Shown here: in pieces, positions 1 through 41,697 of the stretch
Position numbering within the stretch: position 1 is the first letter of the stretch
Layout of the letters: each line of letters begins with the position of its first letter
Translations under genes and position numbers: made by a program
Virus record (IMG/VR): IMGVR_UViG_3300020467_000009
Coordinates: 1-44,507 of that record
DNA: 44,507 nt
Reading direction: 5' to 3' (one strand)
Source: a virus
The notes under the pieces: generated by a model
Databases searched by the model: none
What the model saw: only the letters and a program-made list of their open reading frames with translations
Told to the model about the DNA's origin: nothing

Positions 1-81
1 GGCTGGGCAGCAATGCTTGGATTCGTAGCAGCAGTTGGTGCATATGTAACAACTGGTCAAATCATTCCTGGAATTTTCTAA
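1..81 (+). CDS. hli: High-light-inducible protein (HLIP), 3' end only
   Basis: The window opens inside this gene; 26 codons and a TAA remain. The visible protein has the chlorophyll a/b-binding-like helix of HLIPs (GWAAMLGFVAAVGAY) followed by the typical ending TGQIIPGIF. HLIPs are small thylakoid proteins that bind chlorophyll and carotenoids and protect photosystem II under stress; they are common in marine cyanophages. The upstream ExxNGR half lies outside the window. The stop overlaps the ATG of the next HLIP gene by one base (TAATG), so the two are probably translated together. Confidence 0.9.
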   Translation, partial: GWAAMLGFVAAVGAYVTTGQIIPGIF

Positions 82-206
82 TGAAAAAATTAGAAAAACA
101 AAAGGTTATTGCAGAAAACTGGAACGGAAGACTAGCAATGCTTGGTCTTGTTGCAGCTGCAACATCTGATTTACTCACAGGACATATGTTCTTTGGCGTG
201 TTTTAA
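81..206 (+). CDS. hli: High-light-inducible protein, complete, 41 aa
   Basis: A complete 41-residue HLIP. The core AENWNGRLAMLGLVAAA (residues 11-27) carries the Glu and Asn chlorophyll ligands and the Arg of the family signature ExxNGRxAMxG; the tail TGHMFFGVF replaces the more usual TGQxxPGxx ending. The protein is short even for a phage HLIP, with an 11-residue N-terminus before the helix. It is expected in the thylakoid membrane, stabilising photosystem II or its assembly intermediates. It overlaps both neighbours by one base (TAATG at each junction), so it belongs to one translationally coupled string running to about 547. Confidence 0.9.
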   Translation: MKKLEKQKVIAENWNGRLAMLGLVAAATSDLLTGHMFFGVF

Positions 207-376
207 TGCCTGAGTTGTCAGTAACTAATGAAATATCACCCTTTTTTGCAATCCTATGGTGTTTATATCCCATAGGTTTTGCAGTTTTATTAGAGCTAGT
301 TTTACGTGCTAGTAATAATGATGACGATGATGATCAGGGTGGTGGTGTAATGTCACCTATTTATCAAGGAACCTAA
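206..376 (+). CDS. Small single-span membrane protein with acidic C-terminal stretch
   Basis: A 56-residue protein: a short N-terminus, one hydrophobic segment at about residues 12-34 (PFFAILWCLYPIGFAVLLEL), then Arg, an Asn-Asn-Asp5 run and a Gly-rich tail ending IYQGT. I do not recognise the family. Its length, one membrane span and place behind two HLIP genes suggest a small thylakoid-associated subunit or factor; that is inference. Both ends overlap neighbours by one base (TAATG). The run of five Asp could be a contact or cation-binding surface on one side of the membrane. Confidence 0.72.
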   Translation: MPELSVTNEISPFFAILWCLYPIGFAVLLELVLRASNNDDDDDQGGGVMSPIYQGT

Positions 377-450
377 TGAATCATTTATTTTTCACACTTA
401 TCATTGCAGCTTATTTAGTAACTGATTTAAGTGCTATTGTTTATGCATAA
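376..450 (+). CDS. Tiny membrane peptide, 24 aa
   Basis: A 24-residue ORF that is almost all one hydrophobic helix (LFFTLIIAAYLVTD). Its ATG overlaps the previous stop by one base and its 3' end overlaps the next ATG by 8 bases, matching the coupled pattern of this string. Alone it would be too short to call. Support is positional: no space lies between neighbouring genes and the product is another small membrane segment. Function unknown; comparable in size to the smallest photosystem or cytochrome b6f subunits, but I cannot match it to one. Confidence 0.5.
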   Translation: MNHLFFTLIIAAYLVTDLSAIVYA

Positions 451-547
451 AAATATTTTTTATAGTCCATACTATCCTCTTATTGAGTTTGGATTCTTTG
501 TCATTGTAGGCACAGTGGCAGGACTATACGGTTTTCTACAAGTATAA
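443..547 (+). CDS. Tiny membrane protein, 34 aa
   Basis: A 34-residue ORF with a Tyr/Pro-rich start (YSPYYP) and one membrane span (FGFFVIVGTVAGLYGFL). It is the last of the coupled string that starts with the HLIP genes and overlaps the previous ORF by 8 bases in another frame. Size and topology resemble single-helix photosynthetic subunits, but no diagnostic motif lets me name one. Treat the function as unknown. Confidence 0.55.
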   Translation: MHKNIFYSPYYPLIEFGFFVIVGTVAGLYGFLQV

Positions 548-571: not shown

Positions 572-748
572 TTGCAGCGGTACAAAAGAAGAAATTTACC
601 ATTTTTTCAAGAAGCAAGAATAGCATTAGAAAATAAATGCGACTGCCCTCATTGTATAAATAAAGATACTCAAGCAGAAAGAGCTGGAAAATATTATGAA
701 AATTTAAGCAAAAATTGCAAAAAATTCAAAAAAAGTAACGACTCCTGA
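572..748 (+). CDS. Possible small Cys-containing protein, TTG start
   Basis: An open frame of 58 codons with a TTG start; an in-frame TGA just upstream (560-562) limits the start. The product is basic and has a CDCPHC motif (residues 23-28) that could bind metal, plus a late Cys. There is no convincing ribosome binding site. It fills the gap between the membrane-protein string and the convergent PsbN-like gene. It may be real or a chance frame in AT-rich DNA. Confidence 0.35.
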   Translation: MQRYKRRNLPFFQEARIALENKCDCPHCINKDTQAERAGKYYENLSKNCKKFKKSNDS

Positions 749-776: not shown

Positions 777-1007
777 TTAATCGTCGTGCTCATCCCAAGG
801 ATCGGTTAAATTTTTATTAGGTGGTCCAAATGCCATATATATTCCATAGGCTGTAACTAGGAATAATAATATAAGGATAATAGCAATTATCTGACCTTCT
901 GGTGGTAATCCAGCATAATTTCCATGTTTAATTAATGGTTGCTTTTCCCAAGTGCCAGGAAGAGTATATACAGAGGGTCGAGACAGAAAATAATTAATTA
1001 TCTGCAT
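777..1007 (-). CDS. psbN: PsbN-like protein with N-terminal extension
   Basis: A 76-residue protein whose C-terminal ~40 residues look like PsbN: a membrane helix (about 39-55, IIAIILILLFLVTAYGIY) followed by AFGPPNKNLTDPWDEHDD, the counterpart of the conserved PsbN ending FGPPS-x-L-x-DPF-x-x-HED. PsbN is a thylakoid protein needed for photosystem II assembly and repair rather than a subunit of the finished complex. Typical PsbN is about 43-46 residues; here about 35 extra residues (MQIINYFLSRPSVYTLPGTW...) precede the helix, with no internal Met before residue 58, so the extension is part of the ORF. It converges on the HLIP string. The assignment rests on the helix and tail motif only. Confidence 0.75.
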   Translation of the reverse strand: MQIINYFLSRPSVYTLPGTWEKQPLIKHGNYAGLPPEGQIIAIILILLFLVTAYGIYMAFGPPNKNLTDPWDEHDD

Positions 1008-37210: not shown

Positions 37211-38215
37211 TTATTCCATTACGAGAAGTTTCTCACGGAATACTTGAGGATTTTGCTGTGCAGCATTTAAATATCTCCAAGCATTTTGTGGATCTCTATC
37301 GGCTGCTCCACCGAAATCTTTCCAAAAGTCCTGTGAATTTGCAGGAGCTTGTGGCTGTGGAGGAACAGGCATCTGTGGTCTTGCAGGAGCTTGTGCTTGA
37401 GCTTGACCTTGTGCAGCAGCTGGGTTAGGTAGCTGTTGACCTGCAAAAGTAGGAGCTTGTGGATTTGCAGGAGCTTCATCCTCTACTGGATAAGGTCCAT
37501 TCTCTCCAAAGAACTCACATGTATAGTCAGCTAAAACATCAGGATCTGTAAGAATCTGCTCATATGCTTTATGCTCTGTTGACATCTCTTGTAGTAGATT
37601 TACTGCTTCTTGTAGTTGCTGATTTGTTTGAACTAAAGAATCTTCAATCTTACAAGCATAATCATTAAGAATTGCAGGAGCATCTGCACCAAAATGATTA
37701 ATTACTTCAAGACTTGTTTCGCTTACTCCGTTTGCTAGGAGTTGGTCGTTGGTTATCCCTTGAGAAGTTTGGGAAGAGTTGTTGGAGTATGCCTGGTTGC
37801 TGTTGCTCGAAGGCATATAAGTCTGCTGACCCTGATTGCTGTATGGGGTTGTTTGTTGGAATCCGTAATTGGCTTGGTCGGCTGTTTGGCTCTGAGTCGA
37901 CTGTTGACCCTGGAACGGGAATTGGACTGGTGAACTCAGGAGTCCTACCACCTTCGTGAATGCGTCCTTGTATGGGTTCTCCGCTTGTGGGGCTGCCTGT
38001 TGTGGCTGGGGGTTGTACTGAGTAGGGTTGTATTGGATCCCTTGTACCCCCATCTGGGCTTGAGCCACTGGAGCTGGAGCCTGTTGGGGTTGGGAAGGAG
38101 CCACCCATTGGGAATTCCCTGAAACCGCTTGTGTCTGAGGAGCTACGTAGCTGCTCTGCTGGGTCGGGGATGTCTGGGGTGCTGATTGGGTCTGCTGAGC
38201 GGTAGCGTCCTGCAT
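37211..38215 (-). CDS. Scaffold-like protein, first half encoded inside the portal gene
   Basis: 334 residues. The N-terminal ~170 residues are Gln/Pro/Ala/Ser-rich low complexity (QTQSAPQTSPTQQSSYVAPQ). The middle (SLVQTNQQLQEAVNLLQEMS, TEHKAYEQILTDPDVLADYT) is a coiled coil and the end has KDFGGAADRDPQNAWRYLNA. Scaffold-like by position (between portal and capsid), coiled-coil core and acidic/polar linkers. A good ribosome site is 6 bases upstream of its ATG. Its first 509 bases lie within the portal gene in the +1 frame. The low-complexity part in both frames, and the GC rise, suggest one sequence serving two proteins. Confidence 0.7.
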   Translation of the reverse strand: MQDATAQQTQSAPQTSPTQQSSYVAPQTQAVSGNSQWVAPSQPQQAPAPVAQAQMGVQGIQYNPTQYNPQPQQAAPQAENPYKDAFTKVVGLLSSPVQFPFQGQQSTQSQTADQANYGFQQTTPYSNQGQQTYMPSSNSNQAYSNNSSQTSQGITNDQLLANGVSETSLEVINHFGADAPAILNDYACKIEDSLVQTNQQLQEAVNLLQEMSTEHKAYEQILTDPDVLADYTCEFFGENGPYPVEDEAPANPQAPTFAGQQLPNPAAAQGQAQAQAPARPQMPVPPQPQAPANSQDFWKDFGGAADRDPQNAWRYLNAAQQNPQVFREKLLVME

Positions 38216-39947
38216 AAGTTACCTCTTTTTGTAAACTTTCTAATGTTCGATATAAGAATGGAGTTAAATCCAAACGTGGATCAGCTGCCATCGGTAAGTT
38301 AGGCTGCTGAGGATGTGGGGTTCGCATTTCCTGATTTATTAAGTCAATAAATGCGGAATATGCCCTCTGTACTTCACCTACCATTCTAAACGGAAAACCA
38401 GAAAGCATCGCTGCAATTTCGTCGTCAGTTTTCGAAGGAAATAAGTACTTCAGTGCTTCTATACTATCAACCCCCAATTCTTGAAGGTTTCTAGTAAAAA
38501 TGGATTGATTGAGTTTATCTTGAGCTGTATCTTCATAAACAGGACCCATCCATCTCCAAAGAACTGTTCTATCTCCATCAGGTGCTAGTCCTAATACACC
38601 ATCAGGAATCTCTCTTGTTTCTACTGCAGTATCAATAGCCTGTTGAAGTTTTTGTTCATATTTAATTTTTTGCTTTTCATACTTTTCTAAAGCTTTAGGA
38701 TCTTCTGTATTTTCTGGTAATTCAGGATATTTTATTCCTGAAGAAAACGCTAATGATTTTCTAAAAATTTGTTCTTCTTGGAAAATAATTAATTCAAAAA
38801 CTTTACAAATTCCATACTGATAAATCTGTAAACATTTTTTCTTAGCAGTAGCACTTACACGTCCATACGCAGATTTAATTTCTGTAGCTGTTACGTTTGT
38901 GATACTTAAATCATCTATACCTCCAAGAGCTAATCTAATTTCACTTCTTAATTGTTCTGAGAATCTTGCTTGATCAGAACTGACAGCATTTGGAGTTATA
39001 AAGCCTACTCTGTCAGATGGCTCTAAATTAGCTATAACTCTTGGAACTCTCATTCCACTACCTGGCCTTCCTGTATAACCTGGCTGTTGTCTTGTTATTG
39101 GATCTTGTTTATATGTAGAGCTAAATAAATCTACATTTGAAGCAAAACCTGATTGACTAGATATACTTGGTCTTTGTGCAGTCTCAGAATCACTTTCTAC
39201 AATATCTTGTTTTGGTCTAGATGATAGAAGTGTTGGATTACCAAAGAATGATAAGTTTGCTCTTATATTCTTAACCATTTCATCATGAGCAGAAATCTGA
39301 TTAGCAATAAAATCAAATTCACCTGAACCATCTGTACCAAATGCATCAGGATTATTAAATACTTCAACACATGGAATAAACTCCATAGTATTTTCTACAA
39401 TTTTTTTATCAAAAGTCGCAAAATTTGTATTTTCTTGATCAAAGGTTATTTCTTGTTCTGCATGATATTCTTCTATTTCTGTAGCAGTAATTTTTAATCT
39501 CATATATCTTTTATCAGTATTTAAACCAACTCCAGCAAAACCTTTAGAAGATCTAACTTTATATGGATAAATAATAATTACTTCTTCTAGTTCCCCTTCA
39601 GGTGAATAATATGTCCTATAAGAATCTTTATTAAACCAATAAATTCTATAAGATTTTTTGGTTGGTCTTATATAAAATAATCCTTTTCCGTATGATAAGA
39701 ATCTATCCCATATTGCATCTAATCTTGCATCTAATTGATTAAATTTTATAACTTGCTGAATGAAATCAAATCTTTGTGTTCCAAAATTATCTTGTTGTGG
39801 ATAAAACTCAACTCCCTGTCTTATACCAAACATCTTCATTTGGGATAAGTGAGAACTAACCAACATTGTGTCTGCTGTTCCTTTTCCGTCACGAGTAATG
39901 ACGGATTTAATCATTTCATCTAGAACAGCTTTACTATTACTCTCCAT
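37707..39947 (-). CDS. Portal protein
   Basis: 746 residues. The first ~570 form a portal-like body: FIQQVIKFNQLDARLDAIWD, RFLSYGKGLFYIRPTKKSYR, ISAHDEMVKNIRANLSFFGN, then KPSDRVGF-like and SDQARFSEQLRSEIRLALGG, ITNVTATEIKSAYGRVSATA. It lies downstream of the terminase genes and upstream of the scaffold candidate, the usual order. Large, in the size range of podovirus-type portals (T7-like are ~530, N4 ~760). The C-terminal ~170 residues (from about 578) are Pro/Ser/Gly/Arg-rich and disordered, ending KRSKRNKS, and are the part that overlaps the 334-aa gene. Confidence 0.85.
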   Translation of the reverse strand: MESNSKAVLDEMIKSVITRDGKGTADTMLVSSHLSQMKMFGIRQGVEFYPQQDNFGTQRFDFIQQVIKFNQLDARLDAIWDRFLSYGKGLFYIRPTKKSYRIYWFNKDSYRTYYSPEGELEEVIIIYPYKVRSSKGFAGVGLNTDKRYMRLKITATEIEEYHAEQEITFDQENTNFATFDKKIVENTMEFIPCVEVFNNPDAFGTDGSGEFDFIANQISAHDEMVKNIRANLSFFGNPTLLSSRPKQDIVESDSETAQRPSISSQSGFASNVDLFSSTYKQDPITRQQPGYTGRPGSGMRVPRVIANLEPSDRVGFITPNAVSSDQARFSEQLRSEIRLALGGIDDLSITNVTATEIKSAYGRVSATAKKKCLQIYQYGICKVFELIIFQEEQIFRKSLAFSSGIKYPELPENTEDPKALEKYEKQKIKYEQKLQQAIDTAVETREIPDGVLGLAPDGDRTVLWRWMGPVYEDTAQDKLNQSIFTRNLQELGVDSIEALKYLFPSKTDDEIAAMLSGFPFRMVGEVQRAYSAFIDLINQEMRTPHPQQPNLPMAADPRLDLTPFLYRTLESLQKEVTYAGRYRSADPISTPDIPDPAEQLRSSSDTSGFREFPMGGSFPTPTGSSSSGSSPDGGTRDPIQPYSVQPPATTGSPTSGEPIQGRIHEGGRTPEFTSPIPVPGSTVDSEPNSRPSQLRIPTNNPIQQSGSADLYAFEQQQPGILQQLFPNFSRDNQRPTPSKRSKRNKS
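38222..38226 (-). promoter_or_regulatory. Shine-Dalgarno inside the portal gene for the scaffold gene
   Basis: AGAGG, 6 bases before the ATG at 38215 on the leftward strand. It supports the start that gives the 509-base overlap. Confidence 0.65.
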
Positions 39948-39963
39948 TAATTAGATCCCTTTG

Positions 39964-40149
39964 TTATTGGTCAATGACATAACCAGCATGTAAACGCTTT
40001 AATGTAATTACATCTCCTTCAACTTCAACATCAAATCTTTCATTTGGTTGAAGTGCCATGTCGTGACATAGCTCATCGGGTAATGAAATCACAGCTGAAC
40101 CATAAGCATCTTGCTCAAGTTCAAGTTTGTAAAATGAAGGTTCTGGCAT
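39964..40149 (-). CDS. AbrB/MazE-like swapped-hairpin protein
   Basis: 61 residues. FYKLELEQDAYGSAVISLPD followed by ELCHDMALQPNERFDVEVEG and DVITLKRL has the layout of AbrB/SpoVT/MazE-type DNA-binding domains (beta strand, LP-x-E-L helix, GE/NE-R-F-D/E strand, V-x-L/K-R). Such proteins bind DNA as dimers and often act as regulators or antitoxins. There is no toxin gene beside it. It sits between portal and terminase, 14 bases after the terminase stop side, so it could regulate late genes or play a packaging role; inference. Confidence 0.6.
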   Translation of the reverse strand: MPEPSFYKLELEQDAYGSAVISLPDELCHDMALQPNERFDVEVEGDVITLKRLHAGYVIDQ

Positions 40150-40173
40150 TGTTAATACTTCTAGTTTAAATCC

Positions 40174-41697
40174 TCAATACTCTAACTCAAGTTTTCCACG
40201 AGTCATTAACCCATTACATAGCCAAACTAGAGCATCTACGCAATCATCATGTGAGCTAACCCCAAAATTAACTATCTCATCTGTAAGTGCTCCAAACTTA
40301 CGATACTTATTAAAAATAATTTTTCTTTGTTCAAAAAGTCCCATTATTCCTCGAAATCTTGCAACTTTATCTCCACGGAATCCTTTTACTGGATGCCAAA
40401 TTAAATTATACAAACCTTGCTCAGTTTGACATATTCTTTTAAAGTCTGCTTCTAAAGAAGCCTGATATGCAACAGCCTCAGACCATACATGTAAAGAAGT
40501 TCCTGTAGGAAAATAATTTTTACCATCTTTCATAATTACACCCCACTCTTCCATCATTTCCATTAAAAGTTCTAATTTTTCTAAATTTCCCATCACCCTA
40601 ACTCGTTTGCAATCAATAATATGAATCTTATCTTTTACTCTGCCACCCATAACAAAAACTGTATAATCATTTCTTTCTCTAACTCCAGCTGATAAATCTA
40701 CCCCCACTCCTAAAGCATCAAAATCTGTGGATATATTTCCTTTAACAATTAAATCTGGAGATAAAGATAGTTCACTAGTTTGTACAACTTGATTCTGATA
40801 TTGATAACTAAATGCTATTGGAGCTATTCTTCTTCTTTGACTTAGATAATCTAAAGACCACATATCAGGCCAGTATGATACTTCTTCTCCTTCTTTATCT
40901 ACAGTTATTGCAGATTGGACTATTTGTTTCCAACCATTAGCAGCAAGAAAAGTTCTGCTATGAATATCATCATGTCTAAATCTAGTACCTAAACAAATAG
41001 CTCTTGCACCTTGAAACATAGTAGGAACAATAACTGCATTCCAATTATCTTCCATAGCTTGGCGAATATCTTTATTTTTAATATCATCAGCACTTTTAAT
41101 AGCATCATCAATTATACAAAGATGAGATCTTTTTGAAGTAACAGCACCTTTTAATCCTGCACAACAAACACTAAATTCTTCTTCACCAGTGGATTTTATT
41201 CCTGCAAATTTCCAATCTATACTCCAATATTCATTTGAATTAATTCCTTTAGCAATCTTTACTGTTGGAAAAATTTCTTTATAAATTTTACTTTCTTCTA
41301 TAATTCTTTTAATTGCTGCACTCTTTGGTCTAGCAACATCAACTGTATAAGAAATATATAAAATTTTTAAAGGCATTTTATTTAAAGCATGTATTCCAAT
41401 AGCCCATGCTGTATATAAACCTAATACGGTAGATTTTGCAGATCCTCTAGGAGCCAATATGTCAACATTAGGACCTGCAATACCCTTAAGACATTCACTA
41501 TCATCTCCTGTACATAAAAATTTGTGCCATTCAAGGTGGTGTTTCGCAGGAGGTTTTCCCCCTACAACATCACAAAAATATGCAAAACTTTTTCTAGCCC
41601 TTTCTACATCAACATTAGAAGTTTTTTTGACTACTTGTTGTTTTGCAGCTGCTCTGGCTGTGCGTCTATAAACGCTGTAAATACTTGTACCTGCCAT
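40174..41697 (-). CDS. terL: Terminase large subunit
   Basis: 507 residues. N-terminal ATPase: Walker A APRGSAKST (82-90), Walker B LCIIDD (193-198), coupling motif CLGTR (235-239). C-terminal RuvC-like nuclease: D334 in GVGVDLSAG, then DYTVFVMGG, and D484/D485 with D488 in SSHDDCVDALVW. This is the motor that cuts concatemeric DNA and pumps it through the portal into the head. The upstream 161-aa gene is a candidate small subunit. Length and motif order are standard. Confidence 0.95.
   Translation of the reverse strand: MAGTSIYSVYRRTARAAAKQQVVKKTSNVDVERARKSFAYFCDVVGGKPPAKHHLEWHKFLCTGDDSECLKGIAGPNVDILAPRGSAKSTVLGLYTAWAIGIHALNKMPLKILYISYTVDVARPKSAAIKRIIEESKIYKEIFPTVKIAKGINSNEYWSIDWKFAGIKSTGEEEFSVCCAGLKGAVTSKRSHLCIIDDAIKSADDIKNKDIRQAMEDNWNAVIVPTMFQGARAICLGTRFRHDDIHSRTFLAANGWKQIVQSAITVDKEGEEVSYWPDMWSLDYLSQRRRIAPIAFSYQYQNQVVQTSELSLSPDLIVKGNISTDFDALGVGVDLSAGVRERNDYTVFVMGGRVKDKIHIIDCKRVRVMGNLEKLELLMEMMEEWGVIMKDGKNYFPTGTSLHVWSEAVAYQASLEADFKRICQTEQGLYNLIWHPVKGFRGDKVARFRGIMGLFEQRKIIFNKYRKFGALTDEIVNFGVSSHDDCVDALVWLCNGLMTRGKLELEY

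Follow-up and report, generated by a model that had tools for sequence, protein, structure and literature searches.

Candidate HLIP partners: a conserved chain of small membrane-protein genes in two phage lineages, with a partial counterpart in Prochlorococcus

Introduction

Among the photosynthesis genes that ocean cyanophages carry, hli genes are widespread, and to our knowledge the attachment target of their products during infection has not been settled. In the phages P-HM1, P-HM2, P-SSM4 and P-SSM7, hli genes occur in clusters upstream of psbA (T4-GC 267/436/437/438). Infection in the light induces the hli genes of the host (PMC5082946), T4-like phages of Prochlorococcus have PsbN among their core genes (PMC3037559), and marine relatives of S-EIV1 with hli and ptoX form gOTU G238 (PMC5332604). 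In Synechocystis, the small membrane proteins Psb34 and Psb35 modulate or stabilise the binding of HliA/HliB at CP47-containing photosystem II intermediates (PMC9458560).

Here, the window (the whole stretch of viral DNA analysed, 44,507 nucleotides, IMG/VR record IMGVR_UViG_3300020467_000009) was found to begin with a chain of HLIP and small membrane-protein genes in the same order as the P-HM1-type clusters, hli followed by genes for proteins of 56, 24 and 34 residues (P56, P24 and P34), P56 being T4-GC 437; in P-HM1, P-HM2 and P-SSM4, T4-GC 438 comes after P34. The window differs from those clusters in belonging to another lineage, in having a PsbN-domain gene nearby on the opposite strand, and in showing no psbA in its 44.5 kb.

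Results

Layout of the gene chain

An earlier note on this DNA had described five overlapping frames, comprising the end of one HLIP, a complete 41-aa HLIP and three single-span proteins; all five were confirmed at their positions, including the Asp5 run of P56 (Table 1). The frames meet in TAATG at 81, 206 and 376, P24 and P34 share 8 bases (443-450), and an SD-like AAGGA stands 5 bases 5' of the P24 ATG. The 41-aa HLIP carries the chlorophyll-binding motif ExxNGRxAMxG as ENWNGRLAMLG, and scored 19.3 bits against Pfam PF00504, under the cut-off of 22.3.

Table 1. Features of the window discussed in the text.
Feature	Position	Strand	Basis or remark
HLIP, C-terminal 26 aa	1-81	+	phrog_178, 1.3e-13; contig begins within gene
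Full 41-aa HLIP	81-206	+	phrog_178, 1.2e-15; TAATG overlap at each end
P56, 56 aa	206-376	+	phrog_7843, 4.5e-24, residues 2-55 (full-length profile match)
P24, 24-aa hydrophobic peptide	376-450	+	conserved frame, selection
P34, 34 aa, single-span	443-547	+	motif EFgFFv.VG..AG..G; phrog_17067 via relatives
Probable sixth member, 58-aa ORF with CDCPHC motif	572-748	+	TTG start, start codon uncertain
PsbN-domain protein, 76 aa, phage N-terminal extension	777-1007	-	PF02468, phrog_8051; outside chain
Portal-like protein and large terminase	37707-41697	-	S-EIV1 matches

P56, P24 and P34 each have one hydrophobic stretch, in keeping with a single span (best 19-residue Kyte-Doolittle means of 2.18, 2.16 and 1.85, respectively). 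AlphaFold2 predicted a single helix (residues 12-36) and a loose acidic tail for P56 (mean pLDDT 75.9), the tail after the helix reading Asp5-GGG-M.P.YQG, and a main helix at residues 11-32 for P34 (mean pLDDT 86.8). A signal peptide was considered for P24 and rejected, the C-terminal A-x-A of some copies not being conserved.

Position 547, the end of the frames described earlier, is probably not the end of the chain: a conserved ORF comes next and probably continues it as a sixth gene. Over most of its length this ORF aligns by eye with locus L154:2627-2785 (MQTYKLKNLPFFIEARLAAEGKCDCPHC...), and shorter CPHC-bearing ORFs were seen in two other loci. The PsbN-domain gene (PF02468, 6.9e-16, 58.3 bits against a cut-off of 25; phrog_8051, 3.9e-24) lies ~230 bases from the module; in P-HM1 the homologue is found towards the opposite end of the record.

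Phage lineage and spread of the module

The portal-like protein (52% identity) and large terminase (66% identity) strongly matched S-EIV1 and no other record, which assigns the window to the S-EIV1 lineage; an assignment to T4-like phages was dropped. At the DNA level no named phage was closely related to the 24.5-kb structural half. P56 is missing from S-EIV1 itself, which has no clear HLIP either: the one match, at 6.8e-4, lies within a 159-aa frame. Among 35 module-bearing virus records, 5 matched the portal protein of the window (one by 43 residues only, at a contig end), 5 others carried T4-type Gp23, and the rest, many of them short fragments, carried neither marker. T4-like isolates carry the same module, which therefore sits in two unrelated phage lineages. 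By profile, psbA was present in three S-EIV1-like records and was not seen in the 44.5 kb of the window or in two others, all incomplete; of 193 viral loci, 42 contained matches to a psbA motif set. HLIP-bearing phages that have neither P24 nor P34 include P-RSM4, S-SSM5, P-TIM40 and, by annotation, P-SSP7.

Evidence that the frames are genes

When only P56 served as query, 69 distinct viral loci were obtained; P34 was found behind P56 in 58, P24 in 62, and both in order in 56, and an HLIP stood upstream of P56 in all 57 with enough sequence. The named phages and single-cell virus records (n=15) gave P34 in 12, P24 in 12, both in 10 and an upstream HLIP in 15, and of the 43 loci retrieved with P34 as query, 39 had P56 in front of it. 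A pooled larger set (P24 and P34 both in 103/124) was not relied upon because it includes P34-fetched loci. The search profiles were partly built from the same sequences, which aids recovery and cannot create gene order.

In disjoint pairs, dN/dS was 0.185 for P24 (44 pairs), 0.191 for P34 (51 pairs) and 0.201 for the P56 core (47 pairs), with no in-frame stops, against 0.77-2.8 and 22-161 stop codons in the shifted frames (for P24, 0.92 with 137 stop codons and 2.1 with 43). P24 is exactly 24 codons long in 111 of 116 viral copies, its start lies inside the P56 stop codon in 72, and a Shine-Dalgarno-like word stands at the expected place before 98. A P24 profile, built from 13 sequences drawn mostly from these same viral loci, gave 172 matches in them at E<=1e-3, every one either following P56 or preceding P34. 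P56, P24 and P34 are thus real genes under purifying selection, and their translation is very probably coupled, because of the stop/start overlaps and the Shine-Dalgarno-like words before P24.

With 24 codons and overlaps on both sides, P24 might instead be a coupling or leader peptide, in which the act of translation counts and the product does not, and distant copies are indeed only 13-54% identical to that of the window. This is very improbable given the low dN/dS of P24, the concentration of its changes at third codon positions (180 of 305, with 89 at first and 36 at second positions), its constant length and hydrophobic pattern, and its retention in four loci where a gap of 48-52 bases, in place of the overlap, separates it from P56 upstream.

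The view of the frames as genes was thereby borne out, most HLIP-keeping relatives retaining them free of stops. So was the expectation that the smallest members escape annotation: in the P-HM1, P-HM2, P-SSM4 and P-SSM7 records P56 is annotated as a hypothetical protein and P34 in some, and P24 was annotated at no named-phage locus examined.

Family searches

P56 and, through its relatives, P34, both earlier called unrecognised, were linked to PHROG families that have no function annotation, whereas the term holds for P24, which had no match in PHROG, Pfam, NCBIfam or PDB (the Pfam and NCBIfam scans used a single sequence, with little power at 24 aa). The window copy of P34 matched phrog_17067 weakly (0.0029, residues 2-34 given); the P-HM2 copy, to which alignments tie it, matched the same family at 1.8e-18.

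The earlier note had also suggested phage-made thylakoid subunits. Profiles of Pfam, NCBIfam and PDB gave no photosystem, cytochrome b6f or NDH-1 subunit match for P56, P24 or P34, so a place among thylakoid subunits is something we infer, and homology to photosystem subunits was dropped. The PDB profile search returned nothing for P34 or P24, and what it gave for P56 (E>=0.16) were rhodopsins and further chains with no relation to these complexes; the rhodopsin matches of P56 (E 0.06-0.16, sharing WxxYP) were taken as chance.

Yfr6, a conserved 33-aa peptide of Prochlorococcus (PMC2518516, PMC1242208), was considered as an identity for P34. The Glutamine-II (Downstream-peptide) aptamer marks yfr6-type leaders (PMC2864571), and RF01704 gave no match at the gathering threshold in 20 host P34 loci; the identity was rejected because host P34 genes lack this aptamer.

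Homologues in Prochlorococcus

A search of 386 cyanobacterial genomes gave strong matches to P34 and P56 only in those of Prochlorococcus size, with full-length P56 in ~25; the named host loci are Prochlorococcus, one being labelled Synechococcaceae. Weak partial matches in larger genomes were, among those examined, mostly to the Asp-run tails of other small membrane proteins. For P24, 201 genomes of the host family were searched and none held a credible match. P56 and P34 are therefore not phage inventions; by these searches P24 alone looks virus-specific.

Some Prochlorococcus hli clusters, whose HLIPs are phage-like, resemble the chain of the window, with a 35-aa HLIP, a next HLIP, an Asp-run phrog_7843 protein and then P34, and differ from it in that P24 is missing and P34 is followed by additional HLIPs or small ORFs. 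The order hli-P60-P34-hli, where P60 is a 60-aa Asp-run protein of phrog_7843, was found in four genomes, and again, without P34, in a fifth; another Prochlorococcus locus has hli-P60-P34, and two loci have hli, P34 and P56 in that order on one strand. By hand count, an HLIP gene lies within 1.5 kb of ~8 of 39 host P34 copies (p ~1e-4 if 4% were expected by chance and ~0.01 if 8%, the chance rate being our own estimate). Most host P34 genes stand alone, and P34 can therefore function without an adjacent HLIP.

General membrane effectors, for host takeover, superinfection exclusion or the timing of lysis, could share the HLIP transcript by positional accident, and many uncharacterised single-span phage proteins could act in this way; P24, confined to viruses, would suit such a role. 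We regard this as improbable, since P56 and P34 are conserved chromosomal genes of Prochlorococcus, some of them within hli clusters, and the gene order is preserved in two phage lineages. A defence library also gave no match, and defence proteins were rejected as an identity.

In one Prochlorococcus clade, a P56 homologue lies directly upstream of PTOX (six loci), and at another locus P56 stands beside a PrxQ-like gene. Infection in the light raises host PTOX and hli alike (PMC5082946). The small proteins could accordingly be thylakoid stress proteins whose link to HLIPs is co-regulation only, and which would serve an electron valve by binding another partner, for instance PTOX, the plastoquinone pool or a terminal-oxidase complex. 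The HLIP, however, is the constant neighbour in viruses, and no PTOX was found in the module-bearing S-EIV1-like records checked, which are fragments; we hold such a role to be unlikely, and retain it because P56 adjoins PTOX in that clade.

Two side observations concern the host loci. A 64-aa exported-looking protein is encoded immediately before host P34 at L049:1302-1605 and two further loci, and by eye it recalls T4-GC 438 ('carboxylesterase'), with no profile match. In larger, Synechococcus-like genomes (L098-L102), small proteins that combine a single hydrophobic stretch with an Asp-rich run and GGG adjoin a CobW-kind GTPase, and perhaps represent a wider class of Asp-tailed membrane proteins.

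Discussion

Our preferred reading, held tentatively and with somewhat less than even confidence, is that P56, P24 and P34 are single-pass HLIP partners, made by coupled translation, which protect or assemble photosystems during infection. The chain would act as a single expression unit for HLIPs and small single-pass membrane proteins, with coupled translation supplying the partners at a near-fixed ratio to the HLIPs. After insertion into the host thylakoid, the small proteins would position HLIP-pigment units, or stabilise them, on intermediates of photosystem II assembly or repair, much as HliA/B are modulated by Psb34/Psb35, and electron flow might thereby last through infection; P24 would be a virus-specific helix added to the HLIP assembly. 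The steps of coupled translation, thylakoid insertion, HLIP partnership and photosystem II protection are ones that we infer. Psb34 and Psb35 serve as a working analogy, with no sequence relation detected; Psb35 is likened by description only, and Psb34 has an HliA/B-like N-terminus, which P56 lacks. Against HLIP partnership stand the failure of the searches to detect photosystem homology, the solitary position of most host P34 genes, the HLIP phages without P24 and P34, and the location of P56 by PTOX.

A further reading, possible if rather doubtful, is that Prochlorococcus and its phages share an HLIP-containing thylakoid complex that has escaped recognition, with the three proteins as its dedicated subunits and P24 present in the viral version only.

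As far as the open-access literature shows, the P24 family, the P56-P24-P34 unit, its presence in two lineages and its partial host counterpart are new; neither P24 nor the module was found described there, coverage of that literature being such that absence is weak proof. Databases already list P56 as a hypothetical protein, and the occurrence of PsbN in these phages has been published (PMC3037559).

Annotation of these viruses overlooks a 24-aa gene found in most copies of the cassette. Being conserved, nearly unannotated and common to two phage lineages, and having a host counterpart, the chain offers candidate HLIP partners that are direct targets for tagging and pull-down.
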